Virus record (IMG/VR): IMGVR_UViG_3300046820_001667
Coordinates: 1-23,069 of that record
Length of the DNA stretch: 23,069 nucleotides
Direction: 5' to 3' (one strand)
Source: a virus
The position numbers and the translations under genes are program-made. How positions within the stretch are numbered: position 1 is the stretch's first letter; each line of letters opens with the position of its first letter. Under the pieces are notes generated by a model. That model was not told where the DNA came from, made no database searches, and was given only the letters and a program-made list of their open reading frames with translations. This document shows positions 9,738-15,439 of this stretch, one piece after another.

Positions 9738-10565
9738 TTAATTATTTAATCCGTTAAATCCACCTAACGTAATTGCGTTTAACTGAGCGTATGGTATTCC
9801 ATTTGCGTCAGTGAATATAGGGTGTGGTGCTATTCCATTTGCCGGTCCTCCCTCAGTAATTGACCCACCACTAAAGTTACCCAATATTTGAACAGTATAC
9901 GCATATTGATTATCCACACTATATCCTGTTAATGGATATGGAGTTGATGACGGTGTTGGAGTTTGTGTTGGTGTTGGGGTATTAGTTGGCGTTTTGGTTG
10001 GAGTTGGAGTTGGTGTACCAGTTTTGGTTGGAGTTGGAGTTGGTGTAGCAGTTTTAGTTGGGGTTGGAGTAGGTGTAGCAGTTTTAGTTGGCGTTTGTGT
10101 TGGTGTTCCGGTCTGAGTTGGTGTTGGAGTTGGTGTACCAGTTTTAGTTTGGGTTGGCGTTTGAGTTTGTGTTGGGGTATTTGTTGGCGTTTTAGTTGGA
10201 GTTGGTGTTGGAGTACCCGTTTTGGTTGGAGTTGGTGTAGGTGTTTTTGTAGGTGTTTGAGTTGGAGTACCCGTTTGTGTTGGGGTATGTGTTGGTGTTT
10301 GAGTTTGAGTTGGTGTTGGGGTTGGAGTCGGATTGGCAGTTAAACATGTTACACAATCACCATAATTTGTTGACATAGTTGCAACATAATCCGAACCCGT
10401 TCCTGGCTCCGCAGTATCAGCCACCTCATAACATCCCTGAGTTGTTGCACCTGTGAACGTTAAATAATAATTTCCACCAACAGCTGGAAGTGATGAACTG
10501 TTAAATTCTACGGTTAGTGCTGAACCACCCGCGCAAGGTGCTATAAGATATGTAACGAATGCCAT
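9738..10565 (-). CDS. Thr/Pro-repeat phage surface or fibre-like protein
   Basis: This 275-aa protein has three parts. Residues 1-78 form a beta-rich domain with four cysteines (Cys11, Cys45, Cys71, Cys74) and the ending YGDCVTCLT. Residues 79-208 are an almost pure Thr-Pro tract with Gln, Lys, Gly, Ala and Asn at regular places (units such as [10 protein letters not shown]). Residues 209-275 form a Gly-rich beta domain ([20 protein letters not shown]). Such Pro/Thr tracts act as stiff, extended linkers, and a role as a capsid decoration, fibre or adhesion protein is inferred. A TATTTAT box with 14-nt spacing precedes ATG, and the gene lies just upstream of the head block. There is no secretion signal, which fits a virion protein. 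Confidence 0.72.
9942..10331 (-). repeat. degenerate in-frame tandem repeats encoding Thr-Pro units
   Basis: About 390 bp made of variants of a short unit seen on the plus strand as GTTGGAGTTGGTGT. They encode residues 79-208 of the 275-aa protein. The near-identical units could change in number by slippage or recombination. The reading frame is kept open throughout. Confidence 0.9.
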
Positions 10566-10619: not shown

Positions 10620-11351
10620 CTAATCCTCCATTTTTCTTTCAACGGATAGTTCTTTGTCGGTACCTTTATTGATTGAGTCAAATAATTTTTCAATATGTTC
10701 GGACCTTCTCAAATATTTAAAAACCAAATTTTCATAGGATAATTCCCCATCACCATCCAATCCGGACTGACGATATTTTTTTAATTTGTCTTTAAGAGAT
10801 TCAAGAACTTTGACATCTCCATTCTCAACGGCAGTATCAATTTTTTCAACCCAATTTTGTATTTTAGATTCAAGAACTTTTTTATCTATTTCAAGATTCA
10901 TTTTCTTTGGAACATTAATCCATTTGTTATTCATAATAGAATAAACACCTGAACTAGTGTGAGGTTCTTCGGCATCTTGAGCATATAACTCGACATCATA
11001 TCCAAATATTTTGATATTATGTTTGTCGTTAAAAATTTGTTTTTTTAAATTAAAAAGTTCTTTGTATAATTCATCCTCGTCTCCGTATTCATCCATGTCA
11101 ACAATAATGTGTAAATCAAAATCAGAAAATTCGGACCAATTAAAATTTGAAAGAGAACCTGTAAGGACAACGTCCTCAACAAATACGTCATCACCCAAAT
11201 ACTCAACAAACTCATCAGCAATACGCTCAAGAGCCTTTCTAACTTTAGGAATTATACTTGCCTTTTTAGGGTCAGTAGGATTTTCCCATACTTTTGGGTT
11301 AAGAGTTTCTTTAATAGTGAAACTATTAAGTATTTGTTGTAATTTACTCAT
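10620..11351 (-). CDS. nucleotidyltransferase-fold protein, possibly packaged
   Basis: This 243-aa protein has the polymerase-beta-type nucleotidyltransferase signature: GS at 65-66 (VVLTGSLSNFNW) followed by the metal-binding pair Asp77 and Asp79 in SDFDLHIIVD. A probable third acidic residue lies in the strand YDVELYAQD. Such enzymes transfer a nucleotide to an RNA, protein or small molecule; the target is unknown here. Residues 12-15 read TIKE, followed by Thr, which fits the [I/L]xE rule for T4-type prohead protease cleavage. I infer that it may be an internal head protein injected with the DNA. The C-terminus is helical and charged. A TATTTAT box lies only 4 nt before ATG, so the mRNA may be leaderless. 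The fold call is good; substrate and packaging are open. Confidence 0.78.
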   Translation of the reverse strand: MSKLQQILNSFTIKETLNPKVWENPTDPKKASIIPKVRKALERIADEFVEYLGDDVFVEDVVLTGSLSNFNWSEFSDFDLHIIVDMDEYGDEDELYKELFNLKKQIFNDKHNIKIFGYDVELYAQDAEEPHTSSGVYSIMNNKWINVPKKMNLEIDKKVLESKIQNWVEKIDTAVENGDVKVLESLKDKLKKYRQSGLDGDGELSYENLVFKYLRRSEHIEKLFDSINKGTDKELSVERKMED

Positions 11352-11355
11352 TATT

Positions 11356-11362
11356 ATAAATA
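11356..11362 (-). promoter_or_regulatory. TATTTAT box 4 nt upstream of the nucleotidyltransferase
   Basis: The minus strand reads AGTATTTATAATAATG. The box is 4 nt from ATG, as at the genes starting at 11894, 18146 and 22214. If it is a -10 element, the transcript would begin at or next to ATG. Confidence 0.5.
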
Positions 11363-11605
11363 CTACAGTTTCTTATACTTGTAGGCTTTTGATATCTCGT
11401 TTACAAAAAATTTTCCTTGAGATTCCGCAGCTCTGAATTTTGTGTAGGCTTGGTGTGGTACATCATCATACTCATACTTGAATCCATTGTTAAATTCAAC
11501 AATCATTTTTTTTGTTTCAGTATCGTATTCTGTCCTTTTAATGTTTGACGATTTTATTTCATTAATAATCTTCGTCCCCTTGATTTCTTCCCTTGTGATT
11601 CCCAT
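11363..11605 (-). CDS. KTSC-domain protein
   Basis: This 80-aa protein consists almost entirely of a KTSC domain (residues about 19-78). The hallmarks are the strand MIVEFNNGFKYEYDDVP, then YTKFRAAESQGKFFVNEI and a final Tyr-rich helix. KTSC domains occur alone or at the end of a lysyl-tRNA synthetase-like protein and in many phages; their biochemical role is not established. The lysine/threonine/serine/cysteine motif itself is degenerate here, with AES-G in place of S-x-G. The gene overlaps the end of the 110-aa gene upstream by 44 nt in another frame and stops 11 nt before the nucleotidyltransferase ATG. It is probably translated from the 11894 transcript. Confidence 0.75.
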   Translation of the reverse strand: MGITREEIKGTKIINEIKSSNIKRTEYDTETKKMIVEFNNGFKYEYDDVPHQAYTKFRAAESQGKFFVNEISKAYKYKKL

Positions 11606-11952: not shown

Positions 11953-12330
11953 TTACTTCTTTAATTTCTTTAATTCGTCACGAATCTCGATTGACCTTTC
12001 AAAATTATGGTCCTTAATTGTTTGTTTTAATTCTTCTTCAAGTTTCGTAATGGTTTCTTGATTAAGTTCCATTTTTTTAATTTGGTCTCTAATCTCAACC
12101 GCCTTTTCAAAGTCTTCATTCTCAATTGCAATTTCAAGTTGTCGTTTCAAACCATATCCATCTTTAGATGATTTTGGTTCAGTACCCCTATAATAGGTAG
12201 TAACTTTCACCGTACCATCTTCAGATAGTTTAGTTTGTGATTTCCATTCCCCTAAACGAGAATCAAACTGAGCGAACATATCGTCAAACGCTCTCAAAAT
12301 GTCATTAAAATTTTTTTCGTTTCCAAACAT
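11953..12330 (-). CDS. protein with two UVR motifs, McsA-like ClpC partner candidate
   Basis: This 125-aa protein ends with two UVR-type helical hairpins. UVR1 is at about 61-88 (LKRQLEIAIENEDFEKAVEIRD), UVR2 at about 96-124 (LKQTIKDHNFERSIEIRDELKK). Both have the x-N-F/Y-E-x-A/S-x-x-x-R-D core. UVR motifs are known in UvrB and UvrC, where they bind each other, and in McsA and ClpC, where McsA takes part in ClpC regulation. The N-terminal half (MFGNEKNFNDILRAFDDMFAQFD) is helical, with no Cys zinc fingers, unlike McsA. The gene is divergent from a ClpC-like gene that itself carries a UVR motif. I infer an adaptor or regulator of that unfoldase; a DNA-repair role is less likely because the helicase and nuclease parts are absent. 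Confidence 0.72.
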   Translation of the reverse strand: MFGNEKNFNDILRAFDDMFAQFDSRLGEWKSQTKLSEDGTVKVTTYYRGTEPKSSKDGYGLKRQLEIAIENEDFEKAVEIRDQIKKMELNQETITKLEEELKQTIKDHNFERSIEIRDELKKLKK

Positions 12331-12379
12331 AATTTAATTTTTTTAATTCAGATTTATTTTATACCTTTGTCGTATTCAA

Positions 12380-12408
12380 ATAATATACCATTTAAATAAA
12401 TATGTCAA
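12380..12408 (-). promoter_or_regulatory. candidate sigma70-like promoter of the UVR gene
   Basis: The minus strand reads TTGACA (12403-12408), 17 nt, then TATTAT (12380-12385), about 50 nt before the UVR gene ATG. The spacer also holds a TATTTAT box (12396-12402). Which element is used cannot be decided by eye. Confidence 0.4.
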
Positions 12409-12438
12409 TATGTCAGGTTAAAAAAAATTTACTGACAA

Positions 12439-12471
12439 TTTGACTAAAAATTAGGATAAGAACAATATTTG
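12439..12471 (+). promoter_or_regulatory. possible host-type promoter of the ClpC-like gene
   Basis: TTTG (12439-12442), a 21-nt spacer, then AATATTTG (12464-12471), one mismatch from the Bacteroidota -7 consensus TAnnTTTG. ATG is at 12502. A better -7 match, TACCTTTG at 12362-12369, has no -33 element. Low confidence. Confidence 0.35.
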
Positions 12472-12501
12472 ATTCACCTTTGTAAAATAAAATTAAAAAC
12501 T

Positions 12502-14517
12502 ATGAACGACTTAATGGACGACAACGAAAAATCAGGTAACAAAGCACAAAAACAAGCTATGGACACAAACACTCCTGTATTAGACAACTTCAGTAGAGAT
12601 TTAAATAAACTAGCTGAGGCGGGTAAATTAGACCCGGTAATTGGTAGAGATGCCGAGATTTTGAGAATCGCACAAATCCTTTCTCGTAGAAAAAAGAATA
12701 ACCCTATTATTGTAGGTGAGCCAGGGTGTGGTAAAACCGCATTAGTTGAAGGGTTGGCAATGAAAATTGTTAACGGAGAATGTCCAAGAAATTTAGTGGA
12801 CAAAAGAATTGTAAACCTTGATTTAACTTCAGTTGTTGCCGGTACAAAATATCGTGGACAATTTGAAGAAAGAATGAAAGTGATTATCGAAGAACTTAGT
12901 GCGAACCCAAACATCATCGTTTTTATCGATGAGATTCATACTTTGGTTGGTTCAGGTAATTCATCAGGTTCAATGGATGGTTCAAACATCTTCAAACCAG
13001 CACTTGCTCGTGGTGAGGTTCAATGTATTGGGGCAACAACTCTTGATGAGTTCCGTAAGAACATTGAGAAAGATGGGGCATTGGAACGTAGATTCCAAAA
13101 AGTAGTGGTAGAACCATCAACCGTAGAGGAAACCATTCAAATCCTTAAAAATGTTCGTGATAAATACGAATCATACCACAAGGTGTTGTATAGTGACGAA
13201 GTTATTGAGACTTGTGTTAAGTTGGCTGACCGTTACATTACTGACCGTGAGTTCCCGGATAAAGCATTTGACATCTTAGATGAGGTTGGTGCTCGTATGC
13301 AAACTGAGATTAAAGTCCCTCAAGTAATTGAAGACCTTAAAAAGAAAGCGGCTGAGATTAAGATTGAAAAAATGGAAGTAGTTAAAAAACAAAACTACGA
13401 ACAAGCAGCTCAACTTAGAGATAAGGAGAAAAAGTTGTTAATCAAACTTGAAGTAGAAAAAGAGAAGTTTTCTAAACAAATGGATTTAGAGAAACAAACT
13501 ATTGTTCTTGAAACTGTTTATGAAGTTGTATCAAGTATGACTAAAATCCCGGTGAATAAAATGAATGCTGATGACTCTAAAGCGTTATTAGATTTAGACA
13601 AATCAATCATGGGTAAAGTAATCGGTCAAGATGCTGCTGTTGTTAAGATTGCAAAATCAATCAAGAGAAACCGTTTGGGCATTAAAGACCCTAACAGACC
13701 TATTGGTTCATTTATCTTCTTAGGTTCAACCGGAGTGGGTAAAACTCACTTGGCAAAACAATTGGCAAAAGAGATGTTTGGAACTGAAGATTCACTTATC
13801 CGTGTGGATATGTCAGAATACCAAGAGAAACACACTATCTCTAAATTGGTTGGAGCACCTCCGGGATACGTTGGATATGAAGAAGGTGGATTATTAACTG
13901 AAAAAGTTAAAAATAAACCATATTCTGTTATCTTGTTTGATGAGGTGGAGAAAGCACACAAAGATGTGTTTACGGTATTACTTCAAATCTTGGATGATGG
14001 ACACGTAACCGATAGTTTAGGTAGAAAGATTAACTTCAAGAATACCTTGATTATTTTAACCTCTAACTTGGGTGTTAAGAAATTACAAGATTTTGGTACT
14101 GGTATTGGGTTCTCAAATAACTCATATGCAGATGAGGAGGCGAAAAAAGAAATCTTGATGAAAGAGATGAAGAACTTCTTCTCTCCGGAGTTCATTAACC
14201 GTATTGACGATACTATTGTCTTCAATTCATTATCTCCTGAAGATATTGAAAAAATTACAGAGATTGAATTAAAGAAATTAATGACTCGTCTTGGTGATAT
14301 GAAATACACAGTAACCTACGATAACGAAGTAGTAAAATACTTGGCTAAGATTGGATTTGATGAAGTGTATGGAGCGAGACCATTGAAGAGAGCAATCCAA
14401 GATAAAATTGAGGATTTGTTATCTGAAGAAGTGTTAACCGGTAAAATGTTTGAAGGGAAATCTTACCAAATTAAAATGGATGGTGAGGAAATCAAAATCA
14501 CCAAAAAAGGTAGATAA
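12502..14517 (+). CDS. ClpC/ClpA-like double AAA+ unfoldase without N-domain
   Basis: A Hsp100-type ATP-dependent unfoldase that threads proteins through a ring. I place the start at ATG 12502 (671 aa); a TTG at 12469 is in frame but overlaps the likely promoter. The first AAA+ domain has GEPGCGKT (72-79), pore loop KYRG (116-119) and Walker B VFIDE (140-144). A short middle region carries a UVR motif (about 285-312, QNYEQAAQLRDKEKK), as in ClpC. The second AAA+ domain has GSTGVGKT (408-415), pore loop GYVG (455-458), VILFDE (476-481) and sensor-2 GARPLKR (624-630). IGF at 535-537 sits where ClpA and ClpC have the ClpP-docking loop. The Clp N-domain, which binds adaptors, is absent, so it is shorter than ClpC (about 810-850 aa). 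No clpP is seen in the window, so host ClpP is the presumed partner. A terminator follows at 14522. Confidence 0.92.
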   Translation: MNDLMDDNEKSGNKAQKQAMDTNTPVLDNFSRDLNKLAEAGKLDPVIGRDAEILRIAQILSRRKKNNPIIVGEPGCGKTALVEGLAMKIVNGECPRNLVDKRIVNLDLTSVVAGTKYRGQFEERMKVIIEELSANPNIIVFIDEIHTLVGSGNSSGSMDGSNIFKPALARGEVQCIGATTLDEFRKNIEKDGALERRFQKVVVEPSTVEETIQILKNVRDKYESYHKVLYSDEVIETCVKLADRYITDREFPDKAFDILDEVGARMQTEIKVPQVIEDLKKKAAEIKIEKMEVVKKQNYEQAAQLRDKEKKLLIKLEVEKEKFSKQMDLEKQTIVLETVYEVVSSMTKIPVNKMNADDSKALLDLDKSIMGKVIGQDAAVVKIAKSIKRNRLGIKDPNRPIGSFIFLGSTGVGKTHLAKQLAKEMFGTEDSLIRVDMSEYQEKHTISKLVGAPPGYVGYEEGGLLTEKVKNKPYSVILFDEVEKAHKDVFTVLLQILDDGHVTDSLGRKINFKNTLIILTSNLGVKKLQDFGTGIGFSNNSYADEEAKKEILMKEMKNFFSPEFINRIDDTIVFNSLSPEDIEKITEIELKKLMTRLGDMKYTVTYDNEVVKYLAKIGFDEVYGARPLKRAIQDKIEDLLSEEVLTGKMFEGKSYQIKMDGEEIKITKKGR

Positions 14518-14596: not shown

Positions 14597-15439
14597 TTAG
14601 AAGAATCTACTATTATATCTTGGAAGTTCAACCACTTCTTTGTAGTGTAACTTATTTCCAAGTTTTTCAATCATTTGTCTTCCCATCTCAATCCCTTTGA
14701 AAACATCTTCAATTACCACATATTCGTTTGGTGTGTGGTAATCGTAATACCCAATTGAAAAGTTAATACAAGAAAAGTTAAATTTACTTCTTAATGCGTA
14801 AACATCGGTATACGGGTGAACCATATATTGCATATCTTCATTATGCATCCCTTCGGTTAATACTTGGTCACAAACCTCAAAGAATTCTGATTCTCTATCA
14901 AATAAATCTTGACTGAAACATTTTTCGGTAATCATCCAATTCTCAGGAGCGTCAAATTGAATTCCATACCCAACATTGGTAAAAAATTCAGGGTCTGCTT
15001 TTTTAGAACCGTGACATCCCGTTTCTTCAGATACGAAAAATGCCGCTTTTAAGTTTGGAACTTCTTTAAGTAATTTTAAACAAGCAAAAACACCACACTT
15101 ATCGTCGCCACCGATTCCGGTTGGTAATCCATGTAAGTTGTAAGCTTTCAACGCATCTTTAATCTCACCTTGAGCATTTGGTAATTGTTCCTCATGAACA
15201 ATAATAGTATCCAATCTATGGACAGTGTCGGTATGCGCGATAACACAAGGGAAGTAAAAATCTTCAGGAAGTGTTTCGAGTTCTTGTTTTGTTGCATAAA
15301 CATTTTTGTGTTCATCAACGTAATGTTCTATATTGTTTTCTGTCAACCAATTCTGTAAAAACTCGACCATAAGGTCTTCTTGATAAGTTACGGTTGGAAC
15401 ACTAAGAACTTCTTTTAGCAATAATATATCATTTGTCAT
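14597..15439 (-). CDS. compact M20/M28-like zinc metallopeptidase
   Basis: This 280-aa protein shows the co-catalytic zinc site of M20/M28-clan exopeptidases: His69 and Asp71 in IAHTDTVH, Asp112 in GIGGDDKCG, the catalytic Glu138-Glu139 pair in VSEETGCHGS, probable ligand Asp163 in QFDAP and the final His235 in YHTPNEYV. The order resembles peptidase T, a tripeptide aminopeptidase. It is about 130 residues shorter than peptidase T (about 410 aa), and the gap between the Glu pair and the last His leaves no room for the usual M20 dimerisation lid, so it may be monomeric and M28-like. It would release amino acids from short peptides in the cytoplasm. A host-type promoter ends 4 nt before ATG. 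The gene lies between the ClpC-like gene and the tmRNA region, which hints at a role after ATP-dependent proteolysis. Confidence 0.85.
   Translation of the reverse strand: MTNDILLLKEVLSVPTVTYQEDLMVEFLQNWLTENNIEHYVDEHKNVYATKQELETLPEDFYFPCVIAHTDTVHRLDTIIVHEEQLPNAQGEIKDALKAYNLHGLPTGIGGDDKCGVFACLKLLKEVPNLKAAFFVSEETGCHGSKKADPEFFTNVGYGIQFDAPENWMITEKCFSQDLFDRESEFFEVCDQVLTEGMHNEDMQYMVHPYTDVYALRSKFNFSCINFSIGYYDYHTPNEYVVIEDVFKGIEMGRQMIEKLGNKLHYKEVVELPRYNSRFF

Follow-up and report, generated by a model that had tools for sequence, protein, structure and literature searches.

Investigation of a 23,069-base virus record (the window, which is the whole stretch of DNA analysed and a linear fragment) revealed a clpC-like gene whose 671-aa product, judged by its domains, is an N-domain-less variant of ClpC composed of D1, a middle domain and D2, and not a canonical ClpC. 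We put the probability at about one half that this protein is the unfoldase of a phage-encoded ClpCP protease, which would be freed from N-domain control and would have a UVR protein or a small heat shock protein (sHSP) as its dedicated partner.

Regarding the source of this DNA, the neighbouring genes include those encoding a T4-type portal, a large terminase and a prohead protease of the T4 S77 type, and the nearest relative, with a 96% identical ClpC, is found on a 309-kb record; the source is thus very probably a jumbo T4-like phage. The affinity of the ClpC and gene starts that are A-rich and show no evident Shine-Dalgarno sequence suggest a Bacteroidetes host. Other genes in the vicinity, all on the minus strand, encode a protein that may be a fibre or spacer, with a long threonine-proline repeat of the PTPTPTKT type (9738-10565), a nucleotidyltransferase-like protein (NTP_transf_2) and a KTSC-domain protein, a gene pair kept upstream of clpC in many relatives (10620-11605), and an M20-type peptidase-like protein, convergent with clpC and assigned to a phage peptidase family by PHROGs (14597-15439).

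The clpC-like open reading frame runs on the plus strand from an ATG at 12502 to a stop codon ending at 14517 (12502..14517), as given in the original prediction. Pfam matches to AAA, AAA_lid_9, AAA_2 and ClpB_D2-small were detected in the 671-aa protein, while no match to Clp_N was found in it. The Walker A motifs of D1 (GEPGCGKT, residues 72-79, 12715..12738, plus strand) and D2 (GSTGVGKT, residues 408-415, 13723..13746, plus strand) are present, and on inspection of the sequence the Walker A and B motifs, pore loops and arginine motifs of both rings are all intact. Between the rings, alignment places a middle domain that is of the short ClpC type and contains a UVR motif at about residues 273-332 (13318..13497, plus strand), in which Y299 aligns with F436 at the middle-domain tip of Staphylococcus aureus ClpC; this tip residue is Y or F in 80/80 viral relatives, and an aromatic residue is also kept in host ClpCs. 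The best PDB match was S. aureus ClpC, with an alignment covering its residues 145 to 803 and leaving out the first 144, and the best structural matches of the AlphaFold model were the ClpC chains of ClpC-ClpP complexes. Of the features defining ClpC (Hsp100 class I), two intact AAA+ rings, a short single-wing UVR-type middle domain and a Phi-G-F loop were found, and the N-terminal double Clp_N domain was not. A ClpB disaggregase was ruled out, as ClpB has a long two-wing middle domain and lacks the ClpP loop, neither of which applies to the phage protein. The earlier assignment as a ClpC-like unfoldase is therefore confirmed by D1, the short UVR-type middle domain, D2 and the IGF loop.

In place of the N-domain there is a polar leader of 23 residues (12502..12570, plus strand), of which residues 1-21 are disordered in the model (pLDDT <50), and D1 opens with the conserved TPVLDNF at residue 24. 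This agrees with the prediction that the N-domain is lacking and that coding starts about 25 residues before the first AAA+ domain, and the loss proved to be family-wide: in a comparison set of 80 viral relatives (about 67-96% identical to the window ClpC) the domain was missing from all 78 with a complete 5' end. Their leaders before TPVLDNF comprise 16-23 residues in 75 of the 78, with the frame closing just upstream, and 33-50 residues in the remaining three, whose first ATG in frame is further upstream. Among cellular ClpCs the 80 nearest, from Bacteroidota as far as named, are all full-length proteins of 840-900 aa with 179-233 residues before TPVLDNF. A mis-called start was ruled out because the relatives share the same short leader, and an in-frame TTG at 12469 would lengthen the protein by 11 residues only. 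A hidden or split N-domain was likewise ruled out, as a profile search of the window and of 112 viral loci gave no match and Clp_N was absent from 12/12 larger related records (107-326 kb). Truncation as an artefact is ruled out by the conservation of the form together with strong purifying selection (dN/dS of about 0.05-0.07 between the window clpC and its relatives). The viral ClpCs form one fully supported clade separate from the host ClpCs, and these comparisons indicate that the N-domain-less ClpC is an old, selected form.

Bacteroidetes host ClpC shares D1, the short UVR-type middle domain, D2 and a V/IGF loop with the phage protein, to which it is 55-61% identical over 650 residues, whereas it differs in its length of 840-900 aa with an N-domain, the phage proteins of about 671 aa forming a clade of their own. 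ClpC-like proteins without an N-domain were also detected in three huge phages of 484-642 kb (L229 5884-7989, L230 5923-8046, L231 6019-7992), while that of a fourth (L232, 735 kb) keeps the domain. The huge phages LR745206.1 (634 kb) and LR756502.1 (642 kb) encode N-domain-less ClpCs of 701 and 707 aa with a GVGF loop and have ClpP genes in the same genomes; their ClpCs are, however, only 57-59% identical, fall near host sequences in the tree and have no UVR or sHSP neighbour. The tree suggests that huge phages lost the N-domain independently more than once, but this is not claimed, as a single origin of these two ClpCs and the window clade is neither shown nor rejected (AU p = 0.40). Many matches to ClpB/ClpC in the GenBank phage collection, on short contigs labelled Listeria, Escherichia or fecal phages, look bacterial and were not used.

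The IGF tripeptide that had been placed at the position of the ClpP loop (residues 535-537) was found there, at 14104..14112 on the plus strand. The tripeptide is IGF, VGF or LGF in 80/80 viral relatives and IGF or VGF in 80/80 host ClpCs, a conservation that excludes a chance occurrence. In the AlphaFold model residues 533-540 link two helices as a loop without structure and with low confidence, which is what a flexible ClpP loop should look like, and the segment is thus, within the limits of a monomer model, disordered and not buried. In the solved ClpC-ClpP structure the Phi-G-F motif of the flexible loop docks into ClpP, and its mutation abolishes binding (PMC12521514). Taken together, motif, model and the published structure identify the IGF loop as the ClpP-docking loop.

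A divergent gene upstream of clpC, missed in the original prediction, encodes a 125-aa protein with two UVR motifs, carrying F74 and F110 at F436-like positions (11953..12330, minus strand), and is separated from clpC by an intergenic region of 171 bp (12331..12501), a layout conserved in 68 UVR loci. The protein (P0002) consists of an N-terminal helix, a beta-hairpin and the two UVR motifs, with no other recognisable domain. It contains no cysteine and hence lacks the N-terminal zinc-binding cysteine motifs that accompany the C-terminal UVR motif in McsA. Confidence in its structural model is low, with a mean pLDDT of 64.5, and a fold search with this model gave no significant match and no solved structural relative. 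Slot occupancy was counted in 112 viral loci; in the 80 ClpC loci the divergent slot holds a UVR gene in 38, an Hsp20-family sHSP gene in 20 (L003 9352-9753, L004 9402-9803 and L042 9476-9847, all on the minus strand, and 17 further loci), neither in 20 and never both, the slot lying off the contig in 2. All 68 UVR matches and all 20 sHSP matches in the 112 loci sit in the divergent slot, and in the 32 loci with relatives of the UVR protein clpC lies divergently next door wherever there is room to see it. In 20 larger records HSP20 is confined to three sHSP-slot records and there to the slot, and in the larger records UVR motifs occur almost exclusively in the slot protein and in the middle domain of ClpC, a domain that itself scores as UVR. 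The state of the slot has switched repeatedly on the ClpC tree, with at least about 8 UVR changes forced by well-supported branches. Of the top 40 ClpC columns that track the slot state, 8 fall in the middle domain where 4.8 would be expected, a slight excess which is weak and post hoc, and it is not claimed that columns of ClpC co-evolve with the slot partner. Since two unrelated proteostasis-type genes replace each other beside the same motor gene, there is strong neighbourhood evidence for a shared task, which does not extend to physical contact, and gene neighbourhood and UVR homology make the UVR protein a candidate ClpC adaptor.

Investigation of related records of at least 45 kb revealed ClpP (PF00574) in 18 of 28, comprising 11/12 of a first set and 7/16 of a further one. 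By slot class, phage ClpP was present in 13/14 UVR records, 5/7 sHSP records and 0/7 records without a partner; the ten records in which it was not found thus include all seven without a slot partner, which are fragments (the records behind L081, L079, L043, L050, L048, L052 and L059). Because the sequence of three of these (L081, L079 and L043) reaches 33-58 kb downstream of clpC, part of the clade may truly lack a phage ClpP, and host ClpP could be the partner there. In the five records measured clpP lies 22-32 kb downstream of clpC, the two genes not forming one operon; the ClpP of the nearest relative is encoded about 32 kb downstream, and none was found in the 23-kb fragment that makes up the window. 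The catalytic triad of Ser, His and Asp is kept in the phage ClpPs, including the divergent one of the nearest relative, and these proteins are not the capsid protease, a role that falls here to a head protease of the T4 S77 type. The ClpP of the sub-group to which that of the nearest relative (L202 9178-9921) belongs is only 59% identical to other phage ClpPs and has a host-like Tyr (INLYLQTPGG) where these have His (ITMHIDSPGG), at a position which we take to be a residue of the Phi-G-F docking pocket.

How such a protease might be controlled is suggested by deletion of the N-domain from S. aureus ClpC, which weakens the resting state and makes MecA dispensable for ClpP binding, while contacts between middle domains lead to head-to-head rods in which degradation is blocked; combining the deletion with F436A gives an active, less selective protease, and MecA itself works partly by shielding the F436 tip of the middle domain (PMC12583610). 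This construct resembles the phage ClpC in its short polar linker before D1 and in keeping the middle-domain aromatic, and differs in being a laboratory product that bound ClpP, formed inactive rods unless F436A was introduced and had no UVR or sHSP partner. As the phage protein has lost the N-domain and kept the tip aromatic, it would be expected in a partly released state needing input at the middle domain. Without the N-domain the resting state would be weakened and the ring could dock ClpP without a host adaptor, while the contact kept at Y299 would still pair the rings head to head, up to the point at which a partner covers the tips of the middle domains. With motifs homologous to the tip, the UVR protein may provide this cap and so gate, or recruit to, the phage ClpCP; in members that have an sHSP, this would deliver unfolded or aggregated clients. 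Substrates would enter through pore-recognised tails or the partner, independently of host N-domain adaptors such as ClpS. Both the function of the partner and the choice of ClpP are what we infer from sequence, and the fullest form of the proposal, a self-contained phage ClpCP gated through the middle domain whose discarded N-domain is functionally replaced by an exchangeable UVR or sHSP partner, is offered only tentatively.

The N-domain is the binding site for adaptors such as MecA and McsB, and ClpS is also an N-domain adaptor. The original prediction was that the phage enzyme could ignore such adaptors while competing for host ClpP and redirecting proteolysis, and its first part holds insofar as a ClpC without an N-domain should not respond to them. 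MecA is a poor example, as it was not found in 12 Bacteroidota genomes by a search that detected it in a Firmicutes control; ClpS is present in 12/12 of these genomes, so that, of the known N-domain adaptors, it is the one from which the phage ClpC would escape. A search of six large records for a phage ClpS gave no match. There are simpler readings than competition for host ClpP, since related phages usually encode a ClpP of their own with an intact triad, and such competition may still apply in a sub-group where none was found. That the phage ClpC docks host ClpP, displaces host ClpC or ClpX and redirects host proteolysis regardless of adaptors seems unlikely to us. Its docking loop has the canonical form and is nearly identical to the loop of Bacteroidetes ClpC, host ClpP is present in 12/12 Bacteroidota genomes, and it would be the sole peptidase available in the seven no-partner records; however, the class to which the window belongs has phage ClpP in 13 of its 14 records, that of the nearest relative included, and the phage ClpPs share only about 43-47% identity with the ClpP of Bacteroidota hosts. 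Redirection of proteolysis would moreover probably need a further factor, given that the N-domain deletion in S. aureus by itself yields inactive rods.

Cooperation between sHSPs and Hsp100 proteins is established, and the phage ClpC could alternatively be a ClpP-independent disaggregase or assembly chaperone that keeps virion proteins soluble with the sHSP or UVR protein, in the manner of ClpB with IbpA/B. The sHSP genes in 20 of the 80 slots and the location of clpC in a T4-like head and packaging region (portal, terminase, prohead protease) are consistent with this, and a comparative study of jumbo phages proposed virion-assembly roles for ClpA- and ClpX-like proteins (PMC7824862). We nevertheless regard this role as doubtful, as the middle domain is of the short ClpC type and not the long, DnaK-recruiting ClpB type, the strictly conserved ClpP loop (80/80) would be superfluous in a pure disaggregase, and most records also carry a phage ClpP. 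Passive carriage of a host clpC fragment with no specific role, to which the identity of about 60% to host ClpC might point, is scarcely credible, being already contradicted by the purifying selection and opposed by the well-supported single viral clade far from hosts, the intact motifs and the conserved leader and neighbourhood.

Regarding known systems, a phage-encoded ClpCP with its own partner would resemble SPO1 Gp53 in redirecting ClpCP, although Gp53 is an adaptor-like modulator of host ClpC that competes with MecA (PMC6873191), whereas here the phage supplies the unfoldase. The phage UVR protein is comparable to plastid ClpF, the UVR-DUF151 proteins and McsA of Firmicutes as a UVR-motif protein associated with ClpC, chloroplast ClpC1 having been found to trap several UVR proteins (PMC8889267), and differs from them in having neither DUF151 nor a cysteine-rich zinc motif. 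Flavobacteriia genomes (L236-L238) encode a protein of about 205-225 aa with a C-terminal UVR motif, the N-terminal part of which resembles a DUF151/bifunctional nuclease domain; proteins of this architecture have been trapped with ClpC1 of chloroplasts. In jumbo phages ClpP, ClpS, ClpA and ClpX were reported as scattered components, likewise phage-encoded, and the part of that study considered here does not describe an N-domain-less ClpC with a divergent UVR or sHSP gene (PMC7824862). Searches of the open-access literature found nothing on phage ClpC without an N-domain or on phage-encoded ClpP as such, nor any description of such a ClpC with an exchangeable divergent partner; the conserved, exchangeable divergent partner gene beside an N-domain-less clpC thus appears to be new here.

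The role of the ClpC N-domain has just been worked out by laboratory deletions, and a broad viral clade carries the natural deletion under strong selection, alongside a virus-encoded ClpP and a small, conserved partner gene. This makes two questions testable, namely what controls an Hsp100 protease that lacks its N-domain and whether UVR proteins act on the ClpC middle domain. If the proposal is true, the phage enzyme would be an Hsp100 protease gated via the middle domain instead of the N-domain. As most such viruses encode a ClpP of their own, and a small UVR or heat-shock gene lies beside the motor gene in many of them, they probably bring a private protein-degrading machine and do not only borrow that of the host, which suggests that large phages carry regulated proteolysis of their own, beyond modulators of the host's.
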